Source: an uncultured Bacteroides sp. (GTDB taxonomy: Bacteria > Bacteroidota > Bacteroidia > Bacteroidales > Bacteroidaceae). Taken from it: a stretch of 55,071 bases of DNA. The notes below the pieces were generated by a model. The model did not search any database and was not told the DNA's origin. It saw nothing but the letters and a program-made list of their open reading frames with translations. The translations under genes were made by a program, and so were the position numbers. Of this stretch, positions 50 to 48,271 are shown piece after piece. How positions within the stretch are numbered: the first letter of the stretch is position 1; the number at the start of each line of letters is the position of its first letter. The stretch is from assembly GCA_947074345.1 (NCBI GenBank), contig CAMTPH010000006.1:1-55071 (forward strand). The letters are read 5' to 3'.

Positions 50-133
50 TTGCCACTACATTGGCAAAGTCTTGCCTCAATATAGACAAAGTGTTGCCAA
101 TACACTGGCAAACAATTGCCAATAGAGAGTTAA
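50..133. repeat. 22-bp-period palindrome array, TTGCCA type
   Basis: Units start at 50, 72, 94 and 116, exactly 22 bp apart. Each complete unit is TTGCCA, six variable bases, TGGCAA, then a 4-bp spacer. The second unit has TTGCCT paired with AGACAA, a change that partly keeps the pairing. The fourth unit keeps only the left arm. The array lies directly upstream of the first glycosyltransferase gene. This is read directly from the sequence; its function is unknown. Confidence 0.85.
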
Positions 134-182
134 AAAGATTGATGAATAAAGATTGAATATTACAAATAAACAAACAAATAAG

Positions 183-1316
183 ATGAAGATTTTACACACC
201 ATTCCAGGATTAGATGTTAGCAGTGGAGGTCCAACTACCTGCACCTACAATCTATTGAAAGGGCTCAGGGCCAACAAGGTAGAGGCCGATGTGCTCACCT
301 TTAAATCGAAACAAGAGAATGCTAAAATGATCGGCAACGATTCATTTATCAAATTAGTGGACGATGATGCCATTGCTCCTTTATTGTTCAGCAAGAACTT
401 TAATAACTATCTGATTAACAATCAGGAGTACGACCTCTATCATGCCAATGCATTATGGACATTGCCTAGCCATATGACTATAAAAACGGCGCATCGCAAT
501 AACAAACCGGTAGTGCTGGCCCCTCACGGTATGCTTTATCCACAAGCTTTACAAGTATCCAAATGGAAAAAGGAACTTATCTATCGCATCTTCCAAAAGA
601 GCGATTTACTGAAGGCTACCTGCCTACAAGCCACTTGTATGGAAGAGGTAAAGCATATTCGAAGTTTAAATATACAAACGCCAGTGGCCATCATTCCCAA
701 TTGTTTAAACCTAAATACAAATTGCAAACCAAGGCTTATTCAAAATAACACCAGACGCTTTGGTTTTATAGGCCGCTTGCATCCTATTAAAAATATTCAT
801 CATCTACTAGAATGCTGGAAAAATCTAAAAGCATATACCGATGACTCAGAACTCATCATCATAGGTGGTGGAGATACCGAATATGAGATAGAACTAAAAA
901 GGTATATTATCGATCATAAGATGAATAACATCACCTTCACCGGTTTTATCGAACAAGAATTGTTGAAAGAGCTTATCCCTCAATTTGATTATTTAGTTCT
1001 TCCTAGTAAATCGGAGAATTTTGGTATGGTGGTTCCTGAAGCATTAATTAATGGAGTCCCTGTATTAGCATCAAAAGGAACACCTTGGGAGGAATTAAAC
1101 ACGCACCAATGTGGTTGGTGGTATAACCAAGATGAACTGTCGGACGTACTAATCCAAGCCATTCAGCTGTCCGAATCTAATCGCATAGAGATGGGTAGGA
1201 GAGGTAGAAAACTAGTAAAAGAGAAATATTCGATGGATATAGTTTCATTGCAAATGAAGCAACTCTATCATTGGATATTGACTAAAGGGAACAAACCAGC
1301 TTTTGTGGTAGAATAA
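183..1316 (+). CDS. GT4 family glycosyltransferase
   Basis: This is a retaining GT-B glycosyltransferase (GT4, group 1) predicted to transfer a sugar from a nucleotide donor onto a growing surface glycan at the inner face of the membrane. The N-terminus MKILHTIPGLDVSSGGPTT is the usual first strand and glycine-rich loop of the family. The C-terminal half has the E-x7-E donor motif in SENFGMVVPEA, near residues 278-286, followed by the typical GVPVLAS strand. The frame can open at a TTG at 153, but the ATG at 183 fits the family N-terminus and is preferred. It is first in a run of plus-strand polysaccharide genes, with the flippase gene only 10 bases downstream. The exact sugar cannot be told. 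Confidence 0.9.
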   Translation: MKILHTIPGLDVSSGGPTTCTYNLLKGLRANKVEADVLTFKSKQENAKMIGNDSFIKLVDDDAIAPLLFSKNFNNYLINNQEYDLYHANALWTLPSHMTIKTAHRNNKPVVLAPHGMLYPQALQVSKWKKELIYRIFQKSDLLKATCLQATCMEEVKHIRSLNIQTPVAIIPNCLNLNTNCKPRLIQNNTRRFGFIGRLHPIKNIHHLLECWKNLKAYTDDSELIIIGGGDTEYEIELKRYIIDHKMNNITFTGFIEQELLKELIPQFDYLVLPSKSENFGMVVPEALINGVPVLASKGTPWEELNTHQCGWWYNQDELSDVLIQAIQLSESNRIEMGRRGRKLVKEKYSMDIVSLQMKQLYHWILTKGNKPAFVVE

Positions 1317-1326
1317 TAGAACTATT

Positions 1327-2775
1327 ATGTCTGAGATAAAAGAAAAAACAATCACCGGATTAAGATGGAGCATGGTTGAGAAGTTCTCGAGCCAAGGCAT
1401 CAGTTTTTTGGTTAGTATCGTCATTGCACGATTGCTAACACCGGCTGACTATGGTTTAATCGGACTTACAGCAATATTTATTGGTATTCCACAGGTATTT
1501 ATATCATCGGGATTTGGAACAGCCCTCGTGAAAAAGATAGACCGTACAGAAACCGATTTTAGTACAATGTTTTACTACAATACCGGTATCAGCTTACTTT
1601 GTTATCTTTTATTATTTATCGGAGCACCCTTTATTGCCAATTATTTTAATCAAGCAGAGCTAACAAGCATTGTGCGCATTTTAGGACTCAATTTTGTGTT
1701 CAACTCCTTTCAGTTGGTTCAAATAGTAAAATGCAGAATCAATCTTGATTTTAAAATTCAGGCCAAAATATCATTTGCATGTGTAGTGGGTTCAGGTTCA
1801 ATTGGGTTATTCTGTGCATTTACCGGATTTGGAGTTTGGGCATTGGTGATACAGAGTCTAGCATCCAACTTTATATCGCTATTGTGTTACTCTTTCTTTG
1901 TACGTTGGTATCCTAAACATCGTTTTAGCTCAGAGTCGTTTAAAGAGCTCTTTGGTTACGGATCAAAGATTTTATTGACATCCATCTTAAATACCATCTT
2001 TGGAAATATCTATAACTTTACTATAGGTAAAGTATTCTCCATCTCACAATTGGGATATTATACCAGAGCACAATCAATAGGCGCATTACCATCAGGCAAT
2101 ATTGTTGGTGTATTGCAAAATGTATCCTTTCCTGTATTGAGCAAATGCCAAGAAAACGAAGCACAAATGGTGGCTTATCATCGCAAGATGGTGCGTACAA
2201 CTTGTTATATTCTATTCCCTATATTTGGCTTTTTGATGGTATATGCCAAACCGCTAATCAATGTGCTATTAACAGAAAAATGGCTGCCTGCAGCTCCATT
2301 ATTACAAGTTTTATGTATAGGAATTATGATTGGTTCACTACAAATTTTAAACTCAAACCCGCTTTATGTAAGAGGGAAAACGAATCTAATACTATATGCT
2401 GAAATAATAAATAAAGTATTAATGGTTATCATGATAGTGATCTGTATTCCATTTGGAGTATTGGCCATCTGTATAGGTTCATCCATACTTTCAATTGTAT
2501 CCTTCTTTATCAATATCTATTTTGTAAAGAAAGTATTCCCGCTAAATCTAACCAATCAATTGAAAGATGTATGCTCGAGTTTAGCCATAGTAGGAGTTGT
2601 AGCAATAGCATCGCTTTGCTTCAATCAGCTCTTCACTAATGATTATATCGTATTGATTACCGGTTCCATATTCTCGGCAATATTATATATCGTATTATCT
2701 AAAATCTTTATGAATAACGAATTGATGTCTACATTAGATCTAATTGGACTCAAGAAGAAAGAAGTATTAGTATAA
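1327..2775 (+). CDS. Wzx-type polysaccharide flippase (MOP superfamily)
   Basis: This 482-residue integral membrane protein is predicted to flip undecaprenyl-linked oligosaccharide across the inner membrane. The N-terminus (TITGLRWSMVEKFSSQG, then VSIVIARLLTPADYG) is the hallmark of the WzxC/TuaB branch of polysaccharide exporters. Around a dozen to fourteen hydrophobic segments run through the whole length, and the length is normal for the family. It follows the GT4 gene by 10 bases, suggesting one transcript. It is the only flippase seen in the locus, so it probably exports the glycan built by the neighbouring transferases. The family is clear; the substrate is inferred from context. Confidence 0.92.
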   Translation: MSEIKEKTITGLRWSMVEKFSSQGISFLVSIVIARLLTPADYGLIGLTAIFIGIPQVFISSGFGTALVKKIDRTETDFSTMFYYNTGISLLCYLLLFIGAPFIANYFNQAELTSIVRILGLNFVFNSFQLVQIVKCRINLDFKIQAKISFACVVGSGSIGLFCAFTGFGVWALVIQSLASNFISLLCYSFFVRWYPKHRFSSESFKELFGYGSKILLTSILNTIFGNIYNFTIGKVFSISQLGYYTRAQSIGALPSGNIVGVLQNVSFPVLSKCQENEAQMVAYHRKMVRTTCYILFPIFGFLMVYAKPLINVLLTEKWLPAAPLLQVLCIGIMIGSLQILNSNPLYVRGKTNLILYAEIINKVLMVIMIVICIPFGVLAICIGSSILSIVSFFINIYFVKKVFPLNLTNQLKDVCSSLAIVGVVAIASLCFNQLFTNDYIVLITGSIFSAILYIVLSKIFMNNELMSTLDLIGLKKKEVLV

Positions 2776-2801
2776 CATCTTTTTATTTGTTTGTTTTTTG
2801 T

Positions 2802-2853
2802 GCCTCACTTCACTTTTTCGTGGTTTGTGAAAATAGCACTAAGTGGGTGAGGC
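2802..2853 (+). terminator. Hairpin after the flippase gene, possible terminator or attenuator
   Basis: GCCTCAC (2802-2808) pairs with GTGAGGC (2847-2853), and the pairing extends inward with CACTT and AAGTG. The 3' side runs into CTTTATT. The hairpin sits in the 110-base gap between the flippase and the GT2 gene, inside an otherwise tightly packed gene run, so it may only partly reduce transcription. Confidence 0.5.
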
Positions 2854-2885
2854 TTTATTAAATAAAAAGTAAAATCTAAATCAAT

Positions 2886-3812
2886 ATGAAACAAGTACAA
2901 CGAATATTAGACTTAGCAGTCATTATACTTACCTATAATGAAGAACTGCACATCCGTCGTTGTTTAGACAACGTAAAAACCTTTGCTAGAGAAATATACA
3001 TCATAGATAGTTTCTCAACAGACAATACGCTCGAGATTGCAAGTGAATATCCATCAGTATCTATTATGCAACATAAGTGGGAAAATAGTTATGCCAAACA
3101 ATTCAACTGGGGATTAGCAAATGCTCCAATTAAATCTAGTTGGATACTAAGGCTTGATGCGGATGAATTTCTAACTACTGAATTAATCATGGAATTAGAT
3201 GATAAGTTAGATACTTTAGACTATAATATCACGGGGCTATCCTTCAATCTACGTCGCTATTTCATGGGTGAATGGTTAAAACGTGGTATTTACCCCATTA
3301 AACTAATTCGCTGCTTTAGAAATGGAAAAGCCAAATGCGAGCAACGATTAATGGATGAGCATATCGAACTGTTTGAAGGTGAGTGTGCAGAATTCAAAAA
3401 TGATTTTGTAGATGAAAATCTCAATAATCTATCTTGGTTTTGTCAAAAGCATATCAATTATGCTATAAGAGAAGCAGCAGATTTATTAGATATTGAGTAT
3501 AATTTAACAGAAAATTATAAAAAAAACAACACCTTGCATATTAACAAACAAGCATTACAAAAAAGAAAGCTAAAATATAAATATGCCAAACAACCATTGT
3601 TTGTCCGATCTTTTGCCTATTTTATCTATCGTTATATCATTAAAGGAGCTTTTCTAGAAGGAAAAACAGGTTTTATTTGGACCTTTATGCAAGGTTGGTG
3701 GTATCGTACTTTAGTAGATGTCAAAATATTTGAGATAAAAAGAAAATGCAAAGACGATAAAGAGGAAATCATTCGATATTTGCAAGAAGAATATAATGTT
3801 AGTCTTAAATAG
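2886..3812 (+). CDS. GT2 family glycosyltransferase (WaaE/KdtX-like)
   Basis: This is an inverting GT-A glycosyltransferase of 308 residues. The N-terminal fold starts with AVIILTYNEELHIRRCL and then IYIIDSFSTDNT, typical of the WaaE-like branch of GT2. The metal-binding DxD-type site is in LRLDADEF, near residues 88-94. The region GFIWTFMQGWWYRTLVDVKIFE near the C-terminus is also usual in Bacteroidetes members of this branch. It stands between the flippase hairpin and the acetyltransferase gene, which begins 7 bases after its stop. It probably adds one residue of the repeat unit; donor and acceptor are not recognisable. Confidence 0.9.
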   Translation: MKQVQRILDLAVIILTYNEELHIRRCLDNVKTFAREIYIIDSFSTDNTLEIASEYPSVSIMQHKWENSYAKQFNWGLANAPIKSSWILRLDADEFLTTELIMELDDKLDTLDYNITGLSFNLRRYFMGEWLKRGIYPIKLIRCFRNGKAKCEQRLMDEHIELFEGECAEFKNDFVDENLNNLSWFCQKHINYAIREAADLLDIEYNLTENYKKNNTLHINKQALQKRKLKYKYAKQPLFVRSFAYFIYRYIIKGAFLEGKTGFIWTFMQGWWYRTLVDVKIFEIKRKCKDDKEEIIRYLQEEYNVSLK

Positions 3813-3819
3813 CTAGGTT

Positions 3820-4392
3820 ATGAGCAGATTGTATTATAAATGCGAAAATCAGAAAGATGCCAATGATTCTCCATGGAGTAAAAAGGAGATGATAATGACT
3901 CGAATATGGGAACTTACATGGAATATAGCTATTCGATGGACACCCAAATTTATGTATCGTTGGAACATCCTACTATTAAAACTATTTGGAGCAAAGATAC
4001 ACGGCAGGCCTTTTATTGCCCCATCTTGTCGCATCTATGCACCTTGGCTATTAGAAATAAAAGATCTGGCTTGCCTGGCACCAAGAAGCGAAGTCTATAA
4101 TTTAGGACCCATTGTTATTGAAGAACGTGCAACTATTGCTCAATACACCTATTTATGCAATGGTACACACGATTTAAATGATAAACGATCGCAATTACTT
4201 ATTGGGAATATGCATATTGGAGAAGATGTATTTGTAGGAGCCAAATCCATTATACTACCGGGTTTGAGACTAGGTAAAGGTAGTGTTATAGGAGCAGGAT
4301 CGGTCTTAACAAAAGATACTGGTGAATGGAAAATATACGCAGGAAATCCTGCTTGCTATTTAAAAGAGCGAAAAAGAATTCATGATGATTGA
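3820..4392 (+). CDS. WcaF-like hexapeptide-repeat acetyltransferase
   Basis: This 190-residue protein belongs to the left-handed beta-helix acyltransferases and resembles the colanic acid acetyltransferase WcaF. The N-terminus contains a WELTWNIAIRWTPKFMYRWN helix region, as in WcaF homologues. The middle and C-terminal parts have hexapeptide turns (IGEDVFVGAKSIILPG, GKGSVIGAGSVLTKD) and a catalytic-type histidine in CNGTHDL. It likely O-acetylates a sugar of the glycan using acetyl-CoA. It is 7 bases downstream of the GT2 gene and is followed almost at once by the polymerase-like gene. Confidence 0.88.
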   Translation: MSRLYYKCENQKDANDSPWSKKEMIMTRIWELTWNIAIRWTPKFMYRWNILLLKLFGAKIHGRPFIAPSCRIYAPWLLEIKDLACLAPRSEVYNLGPIVIEERATIAQYTYLCNGTHDLNDKRSQLLIGNMHIGEDVFVGAKSIILPGLRLGKGSVIGAGSVLTKDTGEWKIYAGNPACYLKERKRIHDD

Positions 4393-4430
4393 ATCATAAA
4401 AAAACAAACAAAAAACAAATAATTTTTTTT

Positions 4431-5633
4431 ATGGAAAATAGATTATCTCTTAATGATAAAACGCTAAGTTGGATTATTGTTTTTCTAACAATCAATAATT
4501 TAATTGCTATCTCATTAAACTTAGGAAACATATATTATGGTATATGCGGTGTAGTATTATTTATTATTTTCTCCAAGAATAATAAATATATCATAAATAA
4601 AAGTATGCTCTGTCTATATTTATTATGTGCAATAAGTATATTAATTAATGACATTCCTTCATTATTTAAACCTTGGGAACGTTTAATAAGCTTTATAATA
4701 GTTACAGCATTAGTATCACCTTTTATTGAATCAAATTATTTAAATAGATTCCGAATAAGACTTTTCTCTAGCTTACTTTCTCTTTATCAGCTAGTCGTAA
4801 TTGCATCTATCATAGTTTACTTTATAGGTATACGTTTTAGTGAACTTGCTCACTTTACTGGTATTACAAAACAATCTATGCTTATAGCACCTGTTTCTGC
4901 CATAGTTATATTATATTCAGTATATTCTTTATCAGTTAAACACAAGAAAAACAGATTATATATATGTTATCATATAGTAATATTAATCATCGCTTTTTTA
5001 ACATTGATTTTATCAGCCTCAAGATCAGCAATCATTGGAGCCATTGTATCAATTATTCTTTATTTAGTAATTATTTATCGACAGAAAACACATTATTTCA
5101 TAAAAGTAAGTATAGGTACTATTCTGATTCTCTTATTTACTTTTTCTTTATGGAGTCCATATCTAGAAAATCTAGAACAAAAAAATGCAAGTGCACAAAG
5201 TGCTGGTAGTTTTACAAACACAAGAGATATCTTATGGCAAACTAGAATTGAAGAATTTAAATCAAGCCCATTATTTGGTATAGGTTTTAGTACAGTTGAC
5301 ATAGATCGAGAAGGCTCTAATTATACTAAAGATGGAATAATTGAAACAGGAAGTTCTTGGTTATGTATATTATCAATGATAGGAATACTTGGATTCATTT
5401 CTTTCCTATTTATATATGGAAACAGTGTAAAAATACTTATAAAATCTCTTAATACATCTTTGAAATATGGATCCTTTTTATTGTCACTTTTATGTTTTTG
5501 GACAATCCATATGATTGCAGAAGGATATATCTTTGCTTCTGGAAGTTTTCTGTTTTTTAATGTTTGGTTGTTATTAGGCTATATTCATATTTTAGGATGT
5601 AATTCACATTATATTATAGCTTTATCTAAATAA
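4431..5633 (+). CDS. O-antigen polymerase/ligase-like membrane protein (Wzy or WaaL type)
   Basis: This is a hydrophobic protein of about 400 residues with ten or more membrane segments. A large extracytoplasmic loop (about residues 240-310) contains LFGIGFSTVDIDREGS, typical of the Wzy_C/O-antigen ligase family. It probably polymerises the repeat unit or ligates it to a lipid acceptor in the periplasm. The frame is open from a TTG at 4389, overlapping the acetyltransferase stop, but the ATG at 4431 is a more natural start. Base composition is more AT-rich than in the first four genes, a common sign of variable glycan genes moved between strains. Polymerase and ligase cannot be told apart from sequence alone. 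Confidence 0.82.
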   Translation: MENRLSLNDKTLSWIIVFLTINNLIAISLNLGNIYYGICGVVLFIIFSKNNKYIINKSMLCLYLLCAISILINDIPSLFKPWERLISFIIVTALVSPFIESNYLNRFRIRLFSSLLSLYQLVVIASIIVYFIGIRFSELAHFTGITKQSMLIAPVSAIVILYSVYSLSVKHKKNRLYICYHIVILIIAFLTLILSASRSAIIGAIVSIILYLVIIYRQKTHYFIKVSIGTILILLFTFSLWSPYLENLEQKNASAQSAGSFTNTRDILWQTRIEEFKSSPLFGIGFSTVDIDREGSNYTKDGIIETGSSWLCILSMIGILGFISFLFIYGNSVKILIKSLNTSLKYGSFLLSLLCFWTIHMIAEGYIFASGSFLFFNVWLLLGYIHILGCNSHYIIALSK

Positions 5634-5638
5634 AAAAT

Positions 5639-6694
5639 ATGAAAAAAACAATATCATCATATACAAGTGATAAAATTAAAATCATCTCTTTATTATTGAT
5701 GATTTCAGTTATAAATTGGCATTCAAGTTATAGTTATAATGAAATAGATTGTCTTGTGTTTAATATTAAGTTGCAATATCTGTTTACTGGTATATTTGCA
5801 ATGAGAGTAACTATACAGTTATTCTTTATAATTTCGGGATTCTTATTCTTTTGGAATTTAGAAAATATTTCTTCTGTCTTTAGCAAGATGAAGAAAAGAG
5901 TAAATTCTATTTTAATACCATACATTATCGCATGTACTTTTTTTGTATTTGTTAGCTTATCAATATCTCTAATACCACCTTTAGCAAAATACATGAATTG
6001 GGCTCCAAATTATTTATTGCATGAGAGTTGGAACACAATTCTTATTCATACATTCTTTGATCATGGTGGTAACGGACCGTTAGCATTTCATCTTTGGTTT
6101 CTTAGAAACTTAATTATTATAATAGCCTGTAGTCCAATATTATTTTACATTCATAAATATCTTAAGTCCTATTTCATAATAGTAATTCTTGTTATTGATT
6201 ATTTCTTCAATTATAATAGTATTGTAACTTCTTTACTATGGTTTTATATAGGAGCCTGCTTGGTTGATTTCAATATGAAAATTAATTTAAAGAAGCTTGC
6301 TTTAATTTGTTTGCCTATCTTCATACTAATAATCATATTAGAATTATTCTTTAATATTAAAGTGCCTAGAAAATATGAGTATATTCTTATTTTATTTAAT
6401 ATAATCACGGTATGGAGCGCATATGATCTTTTTATCCCAAAAAGTTTCTCATTAAAAAACAACAGTTTGCTTACTGAAATGTGTAGTATAACCTTCTTTC
6501 TATATTTATTCCATTTACCATTTATAAGTGTAATCAAGAAATTTATAGTTATGATATTAGGTAAGAACTCTCTTGGCTATGCTATAGGCTATCTGACCAC
6601 TCCATTTATATTTTTATTTCTAAGCCTGTTTATAACCGTATTCTTAAAGAAATATTTCTCAAAAAGCTATGCCGTTTGTGTTGGAGGAAGATAA
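5639..6694 (+). CDS. Membrane acyltransferase (Acyltransf_3 family)
   Basis: This is a 351-residue polytopic membrane protein of the acyltransferase-3 family, which O-acylates sugars at the membrane. About ten hydrophobic helices are visible. Family features include IQLFFIISGFLFFWNL after the second helix and HLWFLRNLIIIIA near the middle. The usual early catalytic-type histidine is present in VINWHSSYSY. It starts 5 bases after the polymerase-like gene, so the two are surely cotranscribed. It is very AT-rich. Together with the WcaF-like gene it suggests the glycan is acylated in more than one way. Confidence 0.85.
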   Translation: MKKTISSYTSDKIKIISLLLMISVINWHSSYSYNEIDCLVFNIKLQYLFTGIFAMRVTIQLFFIISGFLFFWNLENISSVFSKMKKRVNSILIPYIIACTFFVFVSLSISLIPPLAKYMNWAPNYLLHESWNTILIHTFFDHGGNGPLAFHLWFLRNLIIIIACSPILFYIHKYLKSYFIIVILVIDYFFNYNSIVTSLLWFYIGACLVDFNMKINLKKLALICLPIFILIIILELFFNIKVPRKYEYILILFNIITVWSAYDLFIPKSFSLKNNSLLTEMCSITFFLYLFHLPFISVIKKFIVMILGKNSLGYAIGYLTTPFIFLFLSLFITVFLKKYFSKSYAVCVGGR

Positions 6695-6817
6695 AGTATA
6701 ACATAATTATAGAATCATGCAATTCAACTTTTTAGAATTTGTATTATCCTATTGATAATCTGATTTATAAATAATTATCTATATAAATTATATTAAAAAT
6801 ATAAATATTTCATTATT

Positions 6818-7608
6818 ATGAAAATACTCTATGACACTCCCGGACAAACATTCAATAGACTTTGGTCTTACATTACAACCTTAGCAGAATGTATTGAAAA
6901 TAACGATAAAATGGCAATTCTATTTTTCGATTATACTTTATTTGATTTTCCTAAACTAAAGAACAATCAATATAACTATTATCCATTCAAAAATGAAAAA
7001 ATAATTGAGTCCATTGGATATAAACAATATATGAAATTATTATATCTATTATTTGGCAACAAATTTATAAGAACCTTTTATTCTAGTAAACTGGGAAGTC
7101 GTTTAGGGTTTATAGAAGGGTGGTCTTTTCGAATGAACAATCAAAATATTCAAAAGAATCACGTTAATCTATATGAGATATTCAAGCCAGATATAAAAAT
7201 AACTCAGGAGGTTGATAATGAATTTTTAAATATAAAGATACTACAATAATAGGTATACACATTAGAAGAGGTGATTATAAAACTTGGAATGAAGGAAAAA
7301 TAAATCAATATATAGAGATTATGAATAGATACGTTGAAGATTATCCAAATGACAATATTGTATTTTTCGTTTCATCAAATGAAAAAATAAATCCTCAATT
7401 ATTTAATGATATAAATTATTTCATATTAAATAATAATGGACCTATTAATGATCTTTATGGATTATCTAAATGTAATAAAATAATAGCTCCTCCAAGTACA
7501 TATTCAAGATGGGCATCATTTTGGGGTAAAAAGCCAATATGTAGAATTAATAAAAAAAATGAAAGAGTATATGACAATGATTTTAATGTCATAGAAACAA
7601 TTTTTTAA
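6818..7608 (+). pseudogene. Frameshifted fucosyltransferase-like glycosyltransferase
   Basis: Two open frames, 6818-7249 and about 7222-7608, together make one protein of about 263 residues. The first opens with KILYDTPGQTFNRLWSY, a nucleotide-sugar-binding start of GT11-like enzymes. The second, read from before its first ATG, gives IIGIHIRRGDYKTWNEGK, the HxRRGDY signature of fucosyltransferases, and ends with LYGLSKCNKIIAPPSTYSRW. The signature lies between the two annotated-looking frames, so neither half alone can work. Adding one base in the T5-A3 tract at 7223-7230 would join the frames as EFLKYKDTTIIG. It may be an inactivated gene, a phase-variable gene, or a sequencing error. Confidence 0.8.
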
Positions 7609-7662
7609 CACAATTAAATATTATAAAAAAACTCTTATCTAGAGAGTTCAACATTCATATAT

Positions 7663-10690: not shown

Positions 10691-10801
10691 ATTATTATAG
10701 AGTTGTGTTTAAGTGTAAACAAGTATTTGTATATAATATTAATACTTTAATTTTTAATACGCAAGATAAAATTCATTTTTTATCATTGGAATATAAAAAA
10801 A

Positions 10802-11470: not shown

Positions 11471-11503
11471 AATTTCGTATCATACATTGTAAATAACTAG
11501 TAT

Positions 11504-12023: not shown

Positions 12024-12111
12024 ACACATTTATGCACACATGCCACGATAACTGTTAACTATTATCGTGGTAAGTATATACATTTAATGTGATAACTGTT
12101 AACAGTTATCG
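12024..12111. repeat. Paired GTTAAC-centred 22-bp palindromes in 22-bp register
   Basis: Two 22-bp palindromes start at 12046 and 12090, exactly 44 bp apart. Both have arms of the CGATAA/TTATCG kind around a GTTAAC centre; the first is further flanked by CCA and TGG. The 22 bases between them begin TGGTAA and contain TACATT, features shared with the copies near 28467 and 36745. The 22 bases before the first palindrome resemble the middle unit in reverse complement. The locus lies between the HAD gene and the 3' end of the radical SAM gene. Confidence 0.85.
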
Positions 12112-12127
12112 GATGGAATATAAATGG

Positions 12128-16210: not shown

Positions 16211-16242
16211 CGTTTATATTGTTATAATATATATTGGTTTGG

Positions 16243-16250
16243 CAAAGGTA
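16243..16250 (-). promoter_or_regulatory. Candidate -7 box for the RNA methyltransferase gene
   Basis: On the minus strand the sequence reads TACCTTTG, matching TAnnTTTG. No TTTG-like -33 element is found at 19-21 bases, so support is partial. Confidence 0.4.
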
Positions 16251-16458
16251 GCGTTTTACTGTTAATATGGTTGTTAAGAACCGTTGAAAACTTGTGAATA
16301 ACCTACCAAAAGATTTTTATAAATAGTTCTTGCATTATTCATTTCTAATGGTATATGCAGAATAGCAATGAACAATACAAATTTTAAATGCCTAAGTTTC
16401 TACACAGTATTGAACATATTTTTCAGCACTTTTCCACCAATTTCTTCTTTAAACTTTT

Positions 16459-16490
16459 TAACTTTGCCCGTTATTAACACTTTGTTAATA
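16459..16490 (+). promoter_or_regulatory. Candidate nadA -7 box with adjoining palindrome
   Basis: TAACTTTG (16459-16466) fits the Bacteroidetes -7 consensus, though no good -33 element is seen. A 7-bp inverted repeat, TATTAAC-N5-GTTAATA (16472-16490), lies at the expected start of transcription and could be an operator. The leader would be about 200 bases. Confidence 0.4.
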
Positions 16491-16679
16491 GAGTATGGTA
16501 TATGGCTTATTATCAATAAATAACCCGATTGATAACAGTTTATAACGTTGGGATAACTATGCTAAGAATATTAATAACTTCTTATGCAAGAAATTTAATA
16601 CTTAATTTCCAACAGTATTAACCGACTATAATTACCATCATATATTTATTTTTTAAAAAGAGAAAGAAATAAGATTATT

Positions 16680-21095: not shown

Positions 21096-21179
21096 GTTTC
21101 ACCGCATTGAAACGATATTTTCAGCCCATTGAAACGTTGGTTTCTGTACGGTGAAACTAAAGTTTCAGTGAACTGAAAC
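21096..21179. repeat. 22-bp-period palindrome array, GTTTCA type
   Basis: Four units start at 21096, 21118, 21140 and 21162, exactly 22 bp apart. Each is GTTTCA (or one base different), six variable bases, TGAAAC, then a 4-bp spacer. The centres are CCGCAT, GCCCAT, GTACGG and GTGAAC. The array lies between the rdgB stop and the porZ start, both on the minus strand. The same architecture is found at 48144 and, with different arms, at 50. Confidence 0.9.
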
Positions 21180-28444: not shown

Positions 28445-28510
28445 CGATAACTGTTAACTATTATCATGTTAAATGTATATATCTAGCGCGATAATAGTTA
28501 ACAGTTATCG
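28445..28510. repeat. Paired GTTAAC-centred 22-bp palindromes in 22-bp register
   Basis: Palindromes start at 28445 and 28489, again exactly 44 bp apart. Both have CGATAA-type and TTATC-type arms around GTTAAC; the two copies are in opposite orientation relative to the small asymmetry of the palindrome. The middle 22 bases (28467-28488) match the middle unit at 12068 at 16 of 22 positions when reverse complemented. It lies downstream of the EamA gene and before its terminator. Confidence 0.85.
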
Positions 28511-28856: not shown

Positions 28857-28995
28857 AATATATCGTTTTATAATTATTACGTATGCTTTATTTATACAAC
28901 AAACAAAAGCGGGAATAGGTTGATTGGGAAAGGGTGTTTTTTAGTTATTAAGATATAAAAAAAGAAGAGTAGGATGGATTTGTTGACTTATGGGC

Positions 28996-29060
28996 AAAAA
29001 AAAAGGAGTCACGCCTGACTCCAACCTTTGTTAACCTTAAATCTAATACTATGAAAAACA
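28996..29060 (-). ncRNA. Candidate small RNA with intrinsic terminator
   Basis: On the minus strand a perfect promoter (29066-29096) precedes about 65 bases that end in a strong hairpin, GGAGTCA-N4-TGACTCC (29005-29022), followed by nine T residues (complement of the A9 at 28996-29004). No coding frame is present in that span. Promoter, short body and terminator together make a compact transcription unit. The end near 29060 is estimated from the -7 box. I do not recognise the RNA family. Confidence 0.6.
29005..29022 (-). terminator. Intrinsic terminator of the candidate small RNA
   Basis: A 7-bp perfect stem (GGAGTCA/TGACTCC) with a 4-base loop is followed on the minus strand by nine T residues. 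The plus strand has no T run after the stem, so direction is clear. Confidence 0.85.
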
Positions 29061-29065
29061 CATTA

Positions 29066-36678: not shown

Positions 36679-36788
36679 CCTTTGTTGTGTAGCAACCAAT
36701 TTGCAATCTACTACATTCAACGCGATAATAGTTAACAGTTATCGTGCTGAATGTAGTAGTTTACCACGATAATAGTTAACAGTTATCA
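36679..36788. repeat. Paired GTTAAC-centred palindromes with inverted flanking units
   Basis: Two 22-bp palindromes start at 36723 and 36767, 44 bp apart, in the same orientation. The unit before the first (36701-36722) and the unit after it (36745-36766) match as inverted copies at 16 of 22 positions, so 36701-36766 forms one 66-bp interrupted palindrome centred on GTTAAC. The unit at 36679-36700 carries its own short inverted repeat (GTTG-N5-CAAC). Confidence 0.85.
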
Positions 36789-37947: not shown

Positions 37948-37991
37948 CTTCAAGCCATAACATCTGAACTCTGAAATAAACGATATATCTT

Positions 37992-38975: not shown

Positions 38976-38999
38976 CTAATTAACGAATAGGACTGTAAC

Positions 39000-41321: not shown

Positions 41322-41418
41322 CGTGCAGTGATTTAATGCGATACAAGATAGTGATTTGTGTACTAGTTATACACAAACCACTCACATTATTTCATTGTTC
41401 AAGCCTTTTTATCCGTTA

Positions 41419-42942
41419 TCAGAAAGAGAACTGAATAGGAGATGCCGGTCCGATAGGGATATCGAGTAGTATCCACAAGAAGAACATCACCATCCATCCT
41501 ATGAAGAAGGCTACCGAATAAGGAAGCATTAAGGATACAATGGTTCCTATACCGGCTTTCTTATCGTATAGCTGTACGAAGGCTACTATCAATGCAAAGT
41601 AAGACATCATAGGCGAGATGATATTGGTTACTGAGTCGCCAATTCGATAAGCCAACTGAGTCAACTCTGGCGAGTAACCAAGCATCATAAACATTGGAAT
41701 AAATACGGGTGCCATAATCGCCCATTTAGCCGATGCAGAACCCATTACCAGATTGATAAATGCAGCCAATAAAATGAACGATAGCATCAACGGGAAAGTT
41801 CCTAAATCGAGTGTTTGAAGTATCATCGCTCCTTTTACAGCGACCAACAATCCAATGTTAGACCATTTGAAATAAGCTACGAACTGAGCCGCAAAGAATA
41901 CCAACACAATGTAAGTACCCATAGTCTCCATTGATTTGCCCATCCCTTTGATAACATCGTTATCGCTCTTGATAGTCTTTGCCCCGATGCCATAGGCAAT
42001 GCCCGGCAAAGCAAAGAACAAGAAGATGAAGGTTACAACACCTTTCATAAATGGAGAGGTTAAGAAGTCGCCATTCTCAGGGTTAAGCAAGAATCCGTTC
42101 TTTGGCAATAGCCCGATAAGGAGTATACCAATCAATGCACATGAGGTGATTGTGGCATACATCATGCCGCGCTTCTCGTCTTTAGTAAGCGGTGTGAGTG
42201 GTATGGCTTCGACATCCTTGCCGTGATATACACCCAAACGAGGAACGATAATACGTTCTGTTACCCATGTCCCCAATCCGGCGATCAAGAAAGTAGAGGC
42301 AAACATGAAGTAGTAGTTACAAGCGGGGTTTACCGTATAGGTAGGATCAATGATTTGTGCCGCCTCTTGTGATAAGCCTGCCAACAAAGGATCGATAGTT
42401 CCTAGCAGTAGATTGGCACTATATCCTCCTGATACACCGGCAAAGGCAGCAGCTAATCCGGCTAGTGGGTTGCGACCTGCCGCCAAGAATATCACTGCAG
42501 CAAGCGGAACTAATAGTACATAACCAACTTCGGATGCTGTATTCGAAAGAATCCCTGCAAATACAATCACAAAGGTGAGCATACGTGCTGGTGCTGCCAT
42601 CACGATACGACGTAAGATGGTTGATATTAAACCCGTTCTCTCTGCAATACCTACACCAAGCATCGCTACAAGCACTGTACCCAATGGTACAAATCCTGTA
42701 AAGTTGCTCACGGTATTCTCTAATATCATATGAATACCTTTTTGGGAGAGTAAGTTGACTACATGAATGGTTTCCCCGGTTGCCGGGTTTGTAACTTCGG
42801 GATTGAAGAGAGAGATAATCCAAGATAAAACAAGTACGCCAAATGCAAATAGGGCAAATAGGGTAGTTGGATTGGGTAAGGCATTACCCACTTTTTCTAC
42901 ATAATGAAGAAAACGGTTGATAAGTGTCTTTTTTTGTGTCAT
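41419..42942 (-). CDS. AbgT family transporter
   Basis: This 507-residue membrane protein belongs to the AbgT family, whose members import p-aminobenzoyl-glutamate or export antifolate sulfonamides. It begins with a cytosolic helix and [21 protein letters not shown]. Other family segments are [17 protein letters not shown] near residue 95, [20 protein letters not shown], and the late [22 protein letters not shown] near residue 400. Length is normal. Folate salvage or drug efflux cannot be chosen from sequence. It is monocistronic. Confidence 0.92.
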
Positions 42943-43311
42943 ACGTCGTTTCAGGCGTTTTTAAGTAATAAGCACATCCATAGGTGGAATTGTTATTAGA
43001 TTTATACTAAAAGTCATTTGTACAAATTTACATAAAATAGACCGTTTTAAAAACACGTTTAATATTAATAAAGACATTTTGTGACATTGGTGTGCTGATA
43101 TGGCGCTGTTTGGTTTACAATGCGTGCAAGCGAGACTGTTTAATTAACATTTTTATTGAATTATCCCTATTCTTCTCTTTTATAGATAGAATTTTGCAGA
43201 TAACTAAAAGAGGCGTAGCACAAATGGCAATGCTACGCCTCTTCATTTCAAAGCGATGATGCAATACAAACGACTATTGCAATCTATCACTTAATTTGAA
43301 AGTATGTTCTT
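42943..43311. other. Intergenic region upstream of the AbgT gene
   Basis: The gap holds a possible -7 box for the AbgT gene (TAAATTTG on the minus strand, 43023-43030, with only a weak TTTT -33) and the terminator at 43208-43243. No gene or repeat is seen. Confidence 0.55.
43208..43243 (-). terminator. Terminator of the GDPD gene
   Basis: AAGAGGCGTAGCA (43208-43220) pairs perfectly with TGCTACGCCTCTT (43231-43243) around a 10-base loop. On the minus strand the stem runs into CTTTTAG. It lies 68 bases past the GDPD stop. Confidence 0.88.
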
Positions 43312-45321
43312 TTATTTTTTGGCTACTTTGATTGCATTCTCTTTGTTCACTTTTACAAAGTAGATGCCCTTATTCAAAGTTGATAAGTTGATTTCTTGCG
43401 ACTTATTTCCGTTTCCTTTAATATTCATCATGATGCTACCCGATAGATCGATTACTTGAATAGTTTCTATAGCTTCATTGCTTTGAACACTCAATGCTCC
43501 ATCTGTAGGGTTAGGATAAACAAAGCTAGCTGAGGCCTTATCGTCTATCACTTTCTTGTTAGCAACATCTGTTCCTTTTACTGACATTAAATAAGTCGCA
43601 TATCCGTTTCCCATGCAATAGTGATGGATATATACGGCATTATCATTAATACGCTCTACATGATAGAATGCACCACACGAAGGGTTGCCTGCATAATTAG
43701 CATCTCCTAGTGGGTTTACTGATAATAACGCTGCCTTTTCGGCACTCATATCACGTACAGTAAATCCACCGTTATAGTTTTTTCCGGATGAATGGATAAA
43801 GATATCATGTCCGCCAAGTTTAAACCATGCACCCCCTACTGTGTTATTGCGTGATGGAGGAGTACCCGAAGTTCCACCTGCTACATAATCTCCTCTATCC
43901 ATGCCATCGTAAAGGAAGTAGCCGGTTGCACGATATTGATAGATGAATTTTTGTGGATTATTCTCAATAGGTATCACGTATCCGGCTGTATTTGATGTGG
44001 CTGATAGGGTTGTAGAAGCTGTTGTTTCAACAAACTTGCCATTAGCTATCTTTACGATGTTAACTACTTTCTTTCCGTTTGGGAAGAAGTAAACATAGCC
44101 TCCTTCAGTAGAGAAGATATCTCCACTGGCCGATATAAAGTTGGTTGTCCCATTGTCTAAAAGACTAAAAGAGATAGCTGTTGGCGTGGTCTCACCTGCT
44201 TTATAGGCTTTTAGTAGATTGGGAGTATCACTTAATCCGTCTTCGTTTCTTAGGATGAGATTGCCTGCATCATCGACTGCTATACCGTGTGTGGCAGTTC
44301 CAGTATATGGGGTTTCCACATTACCTGTTTGGTCGAAGGCAAGTAGGGTAGATGTTGTGTAATTGTTCACTAGAAACTTACCGTTGTGGTAAGCCATTTG
44401 TTGTGCAGATGCATAAGTAGAACCTCCAATGGGAAAGTTTGCTGGTAAATTCTTTGCATTAGCGGTAAAATTGAACACAGTATCAAGTTCTACTTCTAGT
44501 GGATCAACAATGTCGCTTGCATTTCCCCATTCGATATCAGCCAATTCGGGCATATCGCTTGGTTCTAAGTAGTCGCAAGTCATCATATAAACACCCATAT
44601 TACCATAGTTATTATAATTGGCTAATGAGTTTACTGTCCAACAAGCCACATTAAATCCTGCATGGTGGAATTTCTTTGTTGTTGCAAAGTCGAAACTACC
44701 CACTGACATACTTGGTTCAATATTCCACTTCTTACACCACTCAAAGCGTTCATCAGAATATGTACTGATTAAGTATTGGCACTTGGCAGTAGGGTAGTTA
44801 GTTTTAACGTACTCAAGTGATTTCTGCATCGAAGTAAGGAATACGACTTTGCCATCCAACCCTTTTGATTTCACTAAAGCGTATAACCCAGGGAAGTTAG
44901 TCATATCGTTACTGTTGATACCTGTACTCCATTTTAACTCGATTATAGGGAATACATTCTTCTCGTTACAAATGTCTAAGTACTCTTCGATGGTACAAAT
45001 CTGACCGGTATATGTTACGCCTCCTCTGGTTTGAGTTAAGGTTTCAGCCTTTAACTGTTCAAGAGTAGCTGTTGCCACCGTTAAATTTCCCCCTAATGAA
45101 TTAGTTGTTTCATCATGCATAATCACGTATTTGCCATCGGCTGTTACGCGTACATCACATTCAAGACCGGTATAACCGTATACATCTACACCATTTCGGA
45201 ATGCTTCAACTGTATTCGATACCCCTTTGTAGCTTCCACGATGCCCCACAAATATGGGCTTCCATGCATAAACAGACATTATGCTGCATGCCATAATTAA
45301 TAGAGAAAGTAATTTCTTCAT
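43312..45321 (-). CDS. Glycerophosphodiester phosphodiesterase with T9SS sorting domain
   Basis: This 669-residue exported enzyme has a signal peptide (ending near SVYAW), then a GDPD TIM barrel over about residues 22-260. The active-site motifs are visible: FVGHRGS (histidine and arginine near 27-28), LECDVRVTADGKYVIMHDET, and FPIIELKW. A middle region of about 320 residues has beta-propeller-like repeats of unknown role. The last 75 residues, starting YPNPTDGALSVQS and ending VNKENAIKVAKK, are a type A T9SS sorting domain, so the enzyme is probably released to or anchored on the cell surface. It likely cuts glycerophosphodiesters outside the cell. Confidence 0.9.
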   Translation of the reverse strand: MKKLLSLLIMACSIMSVYAWKPIFVGHRGSYKGVSNTVEAFRNGVDVYGYTGLECDVRVTADGKYVIMHDETTNSLGGNLTVATATLEQLKAETLTQTRGGVTYTGQICTIEEYLDICNEKNVFPIIELKWSTGINSNDMTNFPGLYALVKSKGLDGKVVFLTSMQKSLEYVKTNYPTAKCQYLISTYSDERFEWCKKWNIEPSMSVGSFDFATTKKFHHAGFNVACWTVNSLANYNNYGNMGVYMMTCDYLEPSDMPELADIEWGNASDIVDPLEVELDTVFNFTANAKNLPANFPIGGSTYASAQQMAYHNGKFLVNNYTTSTLLAFDQTGNVETPYTGTATHGIAVDDAGNLILRNEDGLSDTPNLLKAYKAGETTPTAISFSLLDNGTTNFISASGDIFSTEGGYVYFFPNGKKVVNIVKIANGKFVETTASTTLSATSNTAGYVIPIENNPQKFIYQYRATGYFLYDGMDRGDYVAGGTSGTPPSRNNTVGGAWFKLGGHDIFIHSSGKNYNGGFTVRDMSAEKAALLSVNPLGDANYAGNPSCGAFYHVERINDNAVYIHHYCMGNGYATYLMSVKGTDVANKKVIDDKASASFVYPNPTDGALSVQSNEAIETIQVIDLSGSIMMNIKGNGNKSQEINLSTLNKGIYFVKVNKENAIKVAKK

Positions 45322-45360
45322 ATCTATATAATAAGGTTATATATATACTATCCTCACTAA

Positions 45361-45393
45361 CAAAAATACAAAAAATAATTAAATGAATACAAA
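45361..45393 (-). promoter_or_regulatory. GDPD gene promoter
   Basis: On the minus strand, TTTG at 45393-45390, 21 bases, then TATTTTTG at 45368-45361. The leader would be about 30 bases. Confidence 0.55.
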
Positions 45394-45621
45394 AATGATA
45401 TAAAATAAAAGTTTAAATCAAAATAGATGAGTGTTCTATAGCTGTTTGGTGGTTATAAGCTTATTATACACGTTATTACTCTATGTGTTTAGAATAATAG
45501 TAAGGCCGAATATGTCATTAATCAATTATCTGTTCGCTAATTATACCTAACAATATAACAACTTCGAGTTATTAATTAAATTAACATATTGTGATTTGAT
45601 GTAGTGGTATGATTAATAAAT

Positions 45622-45671
45622 AATCCCCCTTTATTGTTACTCGTAATTGAGTTGAACAATAAAGAGGGATT
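45622..45671 (-). terminator. Terminator of the MscS-like channel gene
   Basis: A long stem pairs AATCCC..CTTTATTGTT with AACAATAAAG..GGGATT, with an inner ACTC/GAGT pairing and small internal mismatches. It starts 18 bases past the stop codon and is followed by ATTTATTAAT on the minus strand. Confidence 0.75.
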
Positions 45672-45688
45672 TATGGGACATACTAGAT

Positions 45689-48013
45689 TTATTGATTTAT
45701 GAGATGTACATCTCTTTGTGGAAAAGGAATAGTTACATTGTGTTCATTGAGCGTATTGTAAATGGCTACTCTTAATTCGGATAGAGTTGTACCGCGACGA
45801 TTTACAGGAACCCAAACAATAACAGATAAGTCCACACTCGAATCTCCAAAGTCATTTAAGAAGACCGACGAATCACGATTGGGGTCAATATTGGGATTTA
45901 GCTTCACAACATCCATGATTAGTTGGCGAACAAAGTCTACATCTGTTCCATAAGCTACGCCTACCAATATCTTACTCATCTCGTATCCGTGGTTGCGAGT
46001 CAAGTTCTTAAAGTTCTTAGAGAAGAGTTGGCTATTTAAGAATGAAATCAGCGAACCATCAATCGTTTCGAGTATTGTCGATTGATAATTGATGTTCACT
46101 ATTCGTCCACGTACACCATCGCACTCCACCATATCGTTCAGATGAACACGCCCTGTCATCAGCATGATACCGCAAATCAAGTTGTTGATCGAATCTTTTA
46201 GGGCAAAACCAATACCAACCCCCATACCACCAATAGCAGCAATGATTCCCGAACTGTTGATATTAAACAATAAGAACACTGAAATTATATATATGCCCCA
46301 CAAGAAGATGGTCGATAGATTAACAATCAATGCGATACTGCCCGTTGAGGCTTTTTCGCTACCATATATCTCGCGAACCACAATACGCGTTATAAGCGAA
46401 ATATAAGAAACGATTATTCCTAAGCATATAACCAAGATGATGCGTGATAATGATATTCGAGCTATATCCGGTAGGTCGATAAAGAAGTAATTATGCTGCT
46501 CTATCAACCAATCATTCATATCAAACATTTGTGCAGCCAATAGTCCGCATAGAAACACGACTAACACATATCCTATAGGCATTACTAAACGTTGTAAAGT
46601 ATAGTATAGTAGGTTGTTGCGTAACTTCACCGTTTGGCGTATCTCTTTCTTCCGTTTGAAGGTAAGAATCATTTGCAAGCAAGCTAAAGTCAACAAACCT
46701 GCCAATAGGGACACCCAGAACATCATCAATTGTAGTCCTAAGAAGTTATAGCCACTCCAAGCCAATATAGTCGACATGCCTAAAGCAATCATGGAGGCAA
46801 TGGAGTATCTACGATCCCAGGGCGACGTTGATCGGTGATATTTGGTCATCACTAGTGCCTGAGCAATTAAACTTACCATAAATATAATAGGTATACCAAT
46901 GCGTATCACCGAAACAGGAATAAAGAGTATCCGGATAATTAACATAACGACACTCAGTAATATAATCGGTAAGTAAAGCATCGTTGCCGATTTCAACAGT
47001 GAAGGCTTTAGTCGAATGGTTGTAGTCAGTAAAATAGCACACAGCAACCACATAAATTCCATTATTAATCGAGTGGTTACAATGAATACGTTTCGTTGTA
47101 AGACAAAGAAATAGAGGTAAAGCAACGCTATAGAAACAGCTATAAAACTAGCTGTAAATAGAATGTGCCATTTCTTTTCATGCATAGTACGCGTAATGTA
47201 TCTATCGGGCAAGTAACGAAACAACAGCCAGCATATAAGCATTGATAGAGCAAAAGCGAATATTATTATAAAGAAGATAAATCTGACACGTTGCATCCAC
47301 TCAGAAGATCTTTGTTGAGCAGACCCATAACAAGCTTTCAGGGCATATCTCACAGATTCCCATTGGTTATCCCAATCGCCTAGCAATGAGATATAGCTCT
47401 TATGACCTTTGTTAAAGAAGATGCGACTGCGCACATTGGCAAACTCTTGCGTAGCATAGTCGTCCATACGTTTCATCTTCCGCGATATTTCATTGTATCT
47501 ATTTTCGTCATCACCCAATGTGTTGCGTTGTTCTATCAACACCTTTCTTAGGTTTGTAGCCAGCTTGATTGACTTCACTCGATCAACTTTCCCTTGTGCG
47601 GTAAGTAAGCTATCGGCCATCTCATTCAACGTAATAATCATTCCTTCGTATCGCACTATATCCATTTCAAATCCAGCGCGCCAATCATCAACCGGGAACT
47701 TAACTTTGTTGAATTTATCGACTCCTTGTGCTATTTGATGGCAAGCGTGGGCCATACCAAACATAAATTCAGATTGTTGCGAATAGAGTATCAATGCCAA
47801 TTCTTCGTTATCTTCTAACAGTTGCTGCATTTGGCTCCAGTATATTTTGCGATGCTCTTCAAACCGTTTTAGTTGATTGGGTTGCTCTGCTTGAAGCTCT
47901 TCAAGTTCATTGCGAAGCATAAAGATGGTTTTATTGAGGTCTTGCTCTTTAAATATGGCCCAAGTGGGCAACGATAGTATTAGATATAGCGATAGCAATA
48001 CAATTTTTTTCAT
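45689..48013 (-). CDS. Large MscS-family mechanosensitive channel
   Basis: This 774-residue protein has a signal peptide, a periplasmic helical domain of about 220 residues with coiled-coil-like sequence (LNKTIFMLRNELEELQAEQ), about eleven membrane helices, and a C-terminal MscS core. The pore helix is in IIAAIGGMGVGIGFALKDSINN, near residue 590, followed by the beta domain (NDMVECDGVRGRIVNINYQST) and a 3' alpha/beta domain. The layout is like KefA/MscK or YbiO. It should open on membrane tension to relieve osmotic shock. It is divergent from cysK and ends at a clear hairpin. Confidence 0.92.
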   Translation of the reverse strand: MKKIVLLSLYLILSLPTWAIFKEQDLNKTIFMLRNELEELQAEQPNQLKRFEEHRKIYWSQMQQLLEDNEELALILYSQQSEFMFGMAHACHQIAQGVDKFNKVKFPVDDWRAGFEMDIVRYEGMIITLNEMADSLLTAQGKVDRVKSIKLATNLRKVLIEQRNTLGDDENRYNEISRKMKRMDDYATQEFANVRSRIFFNKGHKSYISLLGDWDNQWESVRYALKACYGSAQQRSSEWMQRVRFIFFIIIFAFALSMLICWLLFRYLPDRYITRTMHEKKWHILFTASFIAVSIALLYLYFFVLQRNVFIVTTRLIMEFMWLLCAILLTTTIRLKPSLLKSATMLYLPIILLSVVMLIIRILFIPVSVIRIGIPIIFMVSLIAQALVMTKYHRSTSPWDRRYSIASMIALGMSTILAWSGYNFLGLQLMMFWVSLLAGLLTLACLQMILTFKRKKEIRQTVKLRNNLLYYTLQRLVMPIGYVLVVFLCGLLAAQMFDMNDWLIEQHNYFFIDLPDIARISLSRIILVICLGIIVSYISLITRIVVREIYGSEKASTGSIALIVNLSTIFLWGIYIISVFLLFNINSSGIIAAIGGMGVGIGFALKDSINNLICGIMLMTGRVHLNDMVECDGVRGRIVNINYQSTILETIDGSLISFLNSQLFSKNFKNLTRNHGYEMSKILVGVAYGTDVDFVRQLIMDVVKLNPNIDPNRDSSVFLNDFGDSSVDLSVIVWVPVNRRGTTLSELRVAIYNTLNEHNVTIPFPQRDVHLINQ

Positions 48014-48143
48014 ACTCGATTAAGGCGTATTTTGTGTGTTACTTACTTTTTCAATTCAAATTTATATATTTTTTGATAATTGTTAACTCATTTGCCTCAA
48101 TAAATGTAGTATTGATTTGTTTTCGATTACTCGTTTTGGCAAA

Positions 48144-48271
48144 GTTTCAGTTCGTTGGAACTTTTGTTTCATCCCTATGAAAACAAATTTCCTGTTCGTT
48201 GAAAACAAAGTTTCAATGCGGTGAAACTATTGTTTCGGCAAATAAGAACTAATGAAACTGTTAACTGTTTG
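48144..48271. repeat. 22-bp-period palindrome array, GTTTCA type
   Basis: Units start at 48144, 48166, 48188, 48210 and 48232, all 22 bp apart, and an inverted-looking unit (GAAACT-GTTAAC-TGTTTG) follows in register at 48254. The best unit, at 48210, is GTTTCA-ATGCGG-TGAAAC. The outer units are degenerate. Arms match the array at 21096, over 27 kb away. Confidence 0.85.

Follow-up and report, generated by a model that had tools for sequence, protein, structure and literature searches.

What could hold the spacing of a repeat constant while its sequence is free to vary? The question is raised by six dispersed loci, all built on a 22-bp step, in a 55,071-bp stretch of an uncultured Bacteroides sp. 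genome (assembly GCA_947074345.1, contig CAMTPH010000006.1, our contig C6; the whole stretch is hereafter the window). An initial annotation had proposed that these loci form a class with a common ruler but no common sequence. This proposal is strongly supported by our analysis, which extends the class to other Bacteroidota; 22 bp is confirmed as a period but is not the only one, the true range being 21-23 bp. We tentatively read the arrays as tandem operators for several related DNA-binding proteins, with dyads two helical turns apart, an inferred function that has somewhat less than an even chance of being right. All six loci named in the annotation were present:

50..137, unstranded: family A array, four TTGCCA-N6-TGGCAA units with 4-bp spacers, step 22, score 42/48; units at 50, 72, 94 and 116, the second and fourth degenerate (9/12 arm positions)
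12046..12067, unstranded: family D palindrome centred on GTTAAC, first of a pair
12068..12089, unstranded: family D 22-bp linker, whose consensus reads, by inspection, as an imperfect dyad
12090..12111, unstranded: family D palindrome centred on GTTAAC, second of the pair, 44 bp from the first
21096..21179, unstranded: family B array, four GTTTCA-N6-TGAAAC units with 4-bp spacers, step 22, score 46/48; units at 21096, 21118, 21140 and 21162
28445..28466, unstranded: family D palindrome, first of a pair, 3' of an EamA-family gene
28467..28488, unstranded: family D linker
28489..28510, unstranded: family D palindrome, second of the pair
36723..36744, unstranded: family D palindrome, first of a pair, in a divergent spacer
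36745..36766, unstranded: family D linker
36767..36788, unstranded: family D palindrome, second of the pair
48144..48249, unstranded: family B array, four units (48144-48227, score 42/48) at 48144, 48166, 48188 (8/12 arm positions) and 48210, plus a degenerate fifth at 48232 (8/12)

The dyad arrays of the window consist of 18-bp units (6-bp arms, 6-bp centre) separated by 4-bp spacers, with four units each, and at the three family D loci (12046-12111, 28445-28510 and 36723-36788) the two GTTAAC-centred palindromes of each pair are offset by exactly 44 bp, a 22-bp linker filling the interval. Since this linker appears near-palindromic by inspection, each of the six loci can be viewed as a succession of dyads spaced at 22-bp steps. 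With genes defined as the longest open reading frames (ORFs) of at least 80 aa, without a gene finder, five loci lie between ORFs as annotated, and the locus at 50 has the contig end on one side and an ORF starting at 153 on the other.

The ruler was evaluated against chance in a 450-kb sample of the 3.11-Mb assembly (183 contigs, 84% complete), comprising the window and 20 stretches of the first-numbered contigs picked without regard to arrays. Each position was scored for four consecutive dyads with one common 6-bp arm (maximum 48; centres of 2-12 bp, periods of 15-35 bp), with an order-2 Markov shuffle as the null. At a score of 38/48, a cut-off fixed only after the data were seen, four-unit arrays occurred only at steps of 22 bp (13 clusters) and 23 bp (5 clusters), with none in the shuffle, such that 22 bp does stand out from nearby lengths, as the annotation had supposed. 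Lowering the cut-off to 36 (steps 16-30) added two clusters at 21 bp, two at 24 and one at 29, again with none in the shuffle, and at 35 there were 24 clusters at nine steps besides 22 and 23, with eight in the shuffle. Across 1.22 Mb from five genomes (this genome, its relatives G128, G145 and G091, and G030), 53 four-unit arrays reached a score of 38, of which 39 were at 22 bp, 10 at 23 bp and 4 at 21 bp; the other 18 of the 21 periods yielded none, as did the shuffle. The G030 stretches were partly selected at known GTTTCA matches, and some stretches of the three relatives at repeat matches, so array densities there are inflated. A scan requiring only three units placed 41 of 42 arrays at 21-23 bp and one at 25 bp (shuffles 0), and among loci retrieved with the family B pattern, a seeded set, 38 of 41 had a step of 22 at a score of 38. 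As controls at a score of 37, no array was found in 200 kb of E. coli K-12, while 259 kb from other Bacteroidales families yielded five arrays (steps 23, 23, 21, 18 and 34) and 227 kb from same-genus genomes lacking family B another five (22, 22, 22, 21 and 15); arrays at other periods thus do exist in control genomes but are rare. The scan is blind to diverged or mixed-arm arrays, and most of family D falls under its cut-off.

The same period was found with more than ten different arm sequences. In this genome the arm families are:

Family A: TTGCCA-N6-TGGCAA, step 22
Family B: GTTTCA-N6-TGAAAC, step 22
Family C: AACATCC/GGATGTT with 9-bp spacers, step 23
Family D: GTTAAC palindromes alternating with a 22-bp linker
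Family E: TGGTAG..CTACCA, step 22, one array in the sample

Relatives carry further arms at the same range of steps, including ATAACC..GGTTAT (21), GACACCC..GGGTGTC (23), ATGCAG..CTGCAT (22), GTGAAT..TCAC (22), AAACAT..TGTTT (21) and CTTTTGTACAAAAG (22). Consistent with the expectation of the initial annotation that such arrays would recur elsewhere in the genome, 189 sites were identified in the 3.1 Mb with the GTTAAC 20-mer of family D (up to 2 mismatches), 94 with the two-unit GTTTCA pattern (up to 3) and 69 with the two-unit AACATCC pattern (up to 1), against none for each control pattern, reversed in the case of GTTAAC. When up to 4 mismatches were allowed in the 450-kb sample, the 35 family D sites resolved into 15 pairs, every one 44 bp apart, and five singles.

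Exact two-unit matches to family B were identified in 41 stretches, from records titled Bacteroides, Phocaeicola, Mediterranea, Parabacteroides, Porphyromonas, Prevotella, Segatella, Petrimonas, Bacteroidales, Chryseobacterium and Flavobacteriia, as well as one Treponema metagenome-assembled genome (MAG). The last of these, a contig titled uncultured Treponema from a rumen MAG (L081), represents either a binning error or transfer from Bacteroidota. In a Bacteroidales MAG, near-identical GTTTCATTTTT..-CTAG units form a long B-like array (L085:7384). In a sample of 61 genomes, family B was found in eight (its reversed control matching once, in G052) and family C in six, with both together only in G000, G018 and G030. 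Family D is far more restricted: the three nearest relatives have 4, 1 and 6 sites (control 1, 0 and 0), four more genomes have none (control up to 2), and such small counts are partly noise, although the four sites of G128 form two pairs of 44 bp each. The rise to 189 sites here is among the observations that favour reading the class as dispersed mosaic repeats akin to bacterial interspersed mosaic elements (BIMEs), whose units of about 22 bp would be copied or exchanged by an unrecognised enzyme or by recombination, the ruler coming from the copying machinery and the arrays having no cellular role. We regard this explanation as a real possibility, albeit one that is probably wrong, and weigh it further below. 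A phage or plasmid origin was rejected: exact two-unit patterns of families A, B, C and D were absent from a viral contig collection, and the family D query returned only 29-base matches (E 0.5) in three E. coli records among plasmids.

Of 21 arrays of this genome scoring at least 37, 18 could be placed between two ORFs, in six divergent, five convergent and seven tandem spacers, compared with 33 divergent, 17 convergent and 52 tandem among 102 background spacers of at least 120 bp; the 20 arrays of G030 comprise 10 tandem, six convergent and three divergent placements, the remaining array overlapping an ORF of 97 aa. Nearly all arrays are thus intergenic, with neither a promoter nor a terminator pattern, and we estimate that about a quarter of spacers hold some array.

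To examine what is conserved, arrays of this genome were compared with the syntenic spacers of G128, G145 and G091 where stretches were at hand. The family A array at L023:626 has a same-family counterpart in G128, agreeing at 41/48 positions in the arms, 12/40 outside them, and 14/40 and 13/40 in the flanks; the orthologous spacers of G145 and G091 have none. The family C array at L023:15015 has same-family counterparts in G091 (outer arms 32/32, middle arms 16/24, spacers 10/27) and in G145 (24/32, with arms mostly TACA..TGTA), and that at L029:2826 has a four-unit counterpart in G145 and a two-unit one in G128, none being found in the G091 stretch. Arms and period were kept at these orthologous family C sites, with four units in three of the four cases, while flanks of conserved arrays have only 8-16 identities in 40. 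Given the low identity of flanks and spacers, arms and period have been kept while the rest drifted. Their persistence amid near-random spacers and flanks counts against mosaic repeats without a role. It also counts against plain minisatellites arising without selection by replication slippage on short palindromes: slippage would not retain arms but not spacers at orthologous sites, nor fix a period of 21-23 bp over many sequences. Orthologous Bacteroides arrays at L040 and L057 (the latter a family B array of B. xylanisolvens XB1A) do appear, by eye, to differ by one whole unit, and neighbouring units are alike in longer arrays elsewhere, as slippage would predict, but as a general explanation it is very improbable. 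In G145, family C arms are mostly TACA..TGTA instead of AACA..TGTT, both at the two orthologous sites and in other arrays, a shift that would fit either sites tracking a reader as it changes or a concerted change.

At other spacers the comparison revealed replacement or absence. The spacer 3' of the EamA gene holds family D here, an A-like array in G128 (L192:1593) and a 23-bp C-like array in G145 (L193:14648), and the spacer 3' of a radical-SAM gene holds family D here, an ATGCAG array in G145 (L194:7813) and a weak candidate (score 37) in G128, with none found in G091. Because about a quarter of spacers hold some array, these coincidences of different families at one site are only suggestive; the same-family conservation of family C is harder to explain by chance. 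The family B array at 21096, in the spacer between Ham1 and PorZ, has no such array in G128, G145 or G091. This spacer (L127, L128) holds a GTAGACACG..CGTGTCTCTAC hairpin in G128 and a different long hairpin in G145, and seems to attract palindromes. Similarly, the family B array at L029:13434 has no counterpart in G128 nor in the stretches of G145 and G091 that were read, the family D element at 36723 has none in the compared G128 spacer or the G145 stretch, and the family B array at 48144 has none in G145 and only a weak match (score 37) in G091, the G128 contig ending there. Conversely, a weak D-like array (score 37) was observed upstream of nadA in G091 (L200:9264), none being detected in the nadA spacer here (16211-16679).

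Each unit being a dyad, the arrays could instead be RNA elements, that is, transcribed strings of small hairpins serving as mRNA 3' ends, attenuators or small RNAs (sRNAs), and some arrays do lie just 3' of genes (the 28445 and 12046 loci). In a set of 202 family B units, drawn mostly from relatives and partly kin by tandem duplication, inner positions showed no base-pair covariation beyond that of independent halves: the Watson-Crick match at position 6 was 0.683 against 0.687 expected, and position 8, one of four tested, showed a pairing deficit (0.203 against 0.279, p 0.0075). A loose set of 218 family C units did pair slightly above independence (p 0.057-0.18). Among 101 strict family C units with half-sites AACATCC, AACACCC and AACATGG, however, only 11 were homotypic against about 36 expected, with none of 20,000 permutations as low, such that perfect pairing is rare; this heterotypic pattern may point to an oriented site or to a heterodimer. 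Further, the arrays show no gene-end preference, the full 22-bp palindromes have no loop, and an Rfam search of the window matched no array. The RNA-level hairpins offered by the initial annotation are accordingly disfavoured, lacking a significant excess of inner pairing, and we consider RNA elements a decidedly improbable explanation. With arms and period kept amid random-looking spacers, no covariation and heterotypic halves, DNA half-sites read by a protein are favoured over hairpins. A long hairpin spanning a whole array was also rejected: in 61 partly overlapping windows there was no consistent excess of reverse-complement similarity between centres (3.49/8 for units 1 and 4, 3.48 for 2 and 4 and 2.85 for 2 and 3, against 3.05 between arrays). 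The only Rfam match in the window was the sRNA FopS (RF04319, 77.5 bits; 28995-29061, minus strand), between the EamA gene and mutS and about 490 bp from the family D element.

Evidence for exchange of units came from the recurrence of centre and spacer words, which exceeds column-shuffled expectation and favours mosaic repeats. In 12 family C arrays of this genome we counted 23 identical spacer-word pairs, in both orientations, against 1.3 expected from independent columns. Corresponding counts in G128, G145 and G091 were 23 against 1.5 for family C spacers and 17 against 1.0 for family B centres; family B centres pooled from other genomes gave 57 against 9.6, orthologous arrays included, while family B words of this genome (7 against 0.8) remained within the null maximum of 9. 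Words common to this genome and near relatives numbered 13 against 0.8 for family B and 13 against 2.2 for family C, the latter excluding orthologous arrays. For these counts words were brought into canonical orientation ahead of shuffling, a possible source of bias in the null, and arrays spanning a 400-base bin may be counted twice. Similarity is also higher between neighbouring B units than between distant ones (4.79 against 4.13 of 8), and arrays have been gained or lost between species, again as mosaic repeats would predict. Copying of whole arrays was rejected, in-register spacer similarity among the 12 family C arrays being 14.89/27 against 14.63 when permuted (p=0.22); the arrays do not share an order of words, so that they are not simple copies of one another. 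The recurrence implies either selection for a limited vocabulary or an exchange of units.

The initial annotation had offered as one possibility that units were copied by an unrecognised transposase-like enzyme such as the REP-associated tyrosine transposase (RAYT; REP, repetitive extragenic palindrome) of the window. The relevant features are:

54421-55020: RAYT-like gene (Pfam Y1_Tnp, 1.3e-5, 25.7 bits against a cut-off of 23)
54339 and 54882: GTAGAGACG palindromes (GTAG type) around the RAYT

Against NCBIfam NF047646 this gene matched at 1.9e-11, under the cut-off of that model, and no further copy of the GTAGAGACG nonamer was found in 450 kb. GTAGAGACGNNGCGTGCNGCGTCTC palindromes lie on both sides of the RAYT (54339-54363, with a second copy ending at 54890); as the second lies inside the listed ORF, the true start is probably downstream of the listed TTG. 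The RAYT and its palindromes look like a separate, ordinary REP system. Copying by this RAYT, flanked as it is by other palindromes than those of the arrays, is not supported, and no other copying enzyme was identified, although the recurrence of words leaves room for exchange by another route. A Y1_Tnp search of 12 genomes found a match in G011 only, a result that means little because the window's own weak RAYT was also missed.

In the open-licence literature searched, we found no description of a class with such a design, in agreement with the initial annotation. According to PMC3733652, REPs and BIMEs share with the arrays an intergenic location, many copies, mixed orientation and mosaic clusters, and include several sequence families per class, whereas the arrays have a fixed head-to-tail step of 21-23 bp. 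The REP tag described there, an unpaired GTAG or CGTC at the palindrome foot, is absent from families A-D; family E, with one array, has GTAG within both paired arms, unlike a REP foot. Moreover, a cognate RAYT is flanked by the same palindrome as its REPs, and none was found for the arrays. Membership among REPs and BIMEs therefore fails on tag and RAYT.

The nearest described element is BrickBuilt of Porphyromonas gingivalis, which PMC4596501 describes as a minisatellite inside a miniature inverted-repeat transposable element (MITE), with an always intergenic 23-nt tandem unit without spacers, up to considerable length (18 full repeats in one element), and a leader and tail with IS5-family-like terminal inverted repeats. 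The likeness lies in a 23-nt tandem intergenic unit in a member of the Bacteroidota; the differences are its length, its leader and tail, and its description in one species. When 15 family D elements were aligned, no conserved flank was found. Read as a dyad with 6-bp arms, the BrickBuilt consensus scores 48/48 for the best IUPAC resolution chosen, a score that 2% of shuffled units equal without correction for the choice among resolutions, and is thus only suggestive that BrickBuilt may be a member of this class embedded in a MITE.

The closest described geometry is that of Lrp/AsnC operators: according to PMC2995911, Lrp dimers bind imperfect inverted repeats of 13-17 bp spaced two or three turns centre to centre, octamers are common and DNA is wrapped. 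Imperfect inverted repeats two turns apart are also found here, and Lrp/AsnC octamers might by analogy read the arrays, four dimers contacting sites two turns apart on wrapped DNA. However, Lrp proteins are transcription regulators, while the arrays show no promoter preference, there are too few paralogues, and arrays in relatives often have three units. The 84%-complete assembly has two PF01037 domain matches and ten relatives have 1-4 each, against five arm families in this genome. Lrp/AsnC octamers thus appear improbable as readers. One of the two matches (L023:16677-17150, plus strand) lies 1.6 kb from the family C array with counterparts in both G091 and G145, another gene intervening.

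Two other systems with periodic repeats were considered. The repeats of plasmid iterons and partition-site arrays measure about 22 bp and keep phase with two helical turns, and iterons adjoin one rep gene; the arrays here are dispersed over the chromosome and dyadic. The GTTTCA/TGAAAC arms may resemble the parS half-site, but with a 6-bp centre instead of a 2-bp one. CRISPR arrays, which are accompanied by cas genes, alternate near-identical repeats with unique spacers about 30 bp long. An assignment to CRISPR was rejected on units and spacers of 14+9 or 18+4 bp, with spacers recurring between arrays; no cas gene search was made.

Of the three explanations put forward by the initial annotation, a protein with a two-turn footprint fits best. 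In the operator reading, each array would be a string of protein-binding dyads, mostly four in this genome, with centres two helical turns (21-23 bp) apart. Dimers of a sequence-specific protein would sit on adjacent dyads, facing nearly the same side of the helix and touching each other; an array would thereby take up a small oligomer of dimers, with probable bending or wrapping of 70-90 bp. We propose that the ruler is constant because dimer packing sets it, and that arms differ between families because each has its own related reader with a diverged recognition surface. The most likely role of the arrays would be in chromosome architecture or as boundaries, any influence on nearby genes being secondary; here we infer the protein, its oligomeric state, the wrapping and the cellular role alike.

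Several observations weigh against this reading. No reader protein was found, and one Lrp per family does not work, because PF01037 matches are fewer than array families. At 10.5 bp per turn, steps of 21, 22 and 23 bp are unequally in phase. A simple homodimer would leave the avoidance of homotypic units in family C unexplained. Array gain and loss is fast, several arrays of this genome having no counterpart in the spacers of relatives, and even between arrays only, family C spacers of this genome have 19 identical words against 1.2 expected, which points to unit copying or exchange. Finally, the number of units is not strictly four: in the three-unit scan, 21 of all 42 arrays have four units and 15 have three. 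The 15 arrays of this genome comprise 11 with four units, three with three and one with six; the 13 of G128, G145 and G091 comprise four with four units and nine with three; and the 14 of G030 comprise six with four, three with three and five with five to seven. In the scan requiring four units, a further unit (at least 9/12 arm positions) was present in 0/18 arrays here, 0/18 in G128, G145 and G091, and 4/17 in G030. Four units is thus the mode of this genome and no rule. Among the matches listed for G017, several family C places are three-unit, and at least three read a+c, a+a, c+a, a symmetric string of units.

The conserved trait of this class is a geometry, dyads at a 21-23-bp step, while repeat families are normally defined by sequence; sequence-based repeat finders would consequently split it into unrelated families and overlook its unity. 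More broadly, and doubtfully, Bacteroidota may have an unrecognised superfamily of chromosome-organising proteins, whose diverged paralogues share one quaternary geometry, with dimers packed two turns apart in small oligomers; several orthogonal sets of landing pads per genome, with units exchanged between arrays, would then make up a ruler code, independent of sequence, across much of the chromosome. Because the ruler is strict and orthologous sites are available, the idea can be put to a direct test in existing laboratory strains. Any reader protein would be a nucleoid or boundary factor so far overlooked in a phylum that dominates in the human gut, and many of its sites could be predicted at once.

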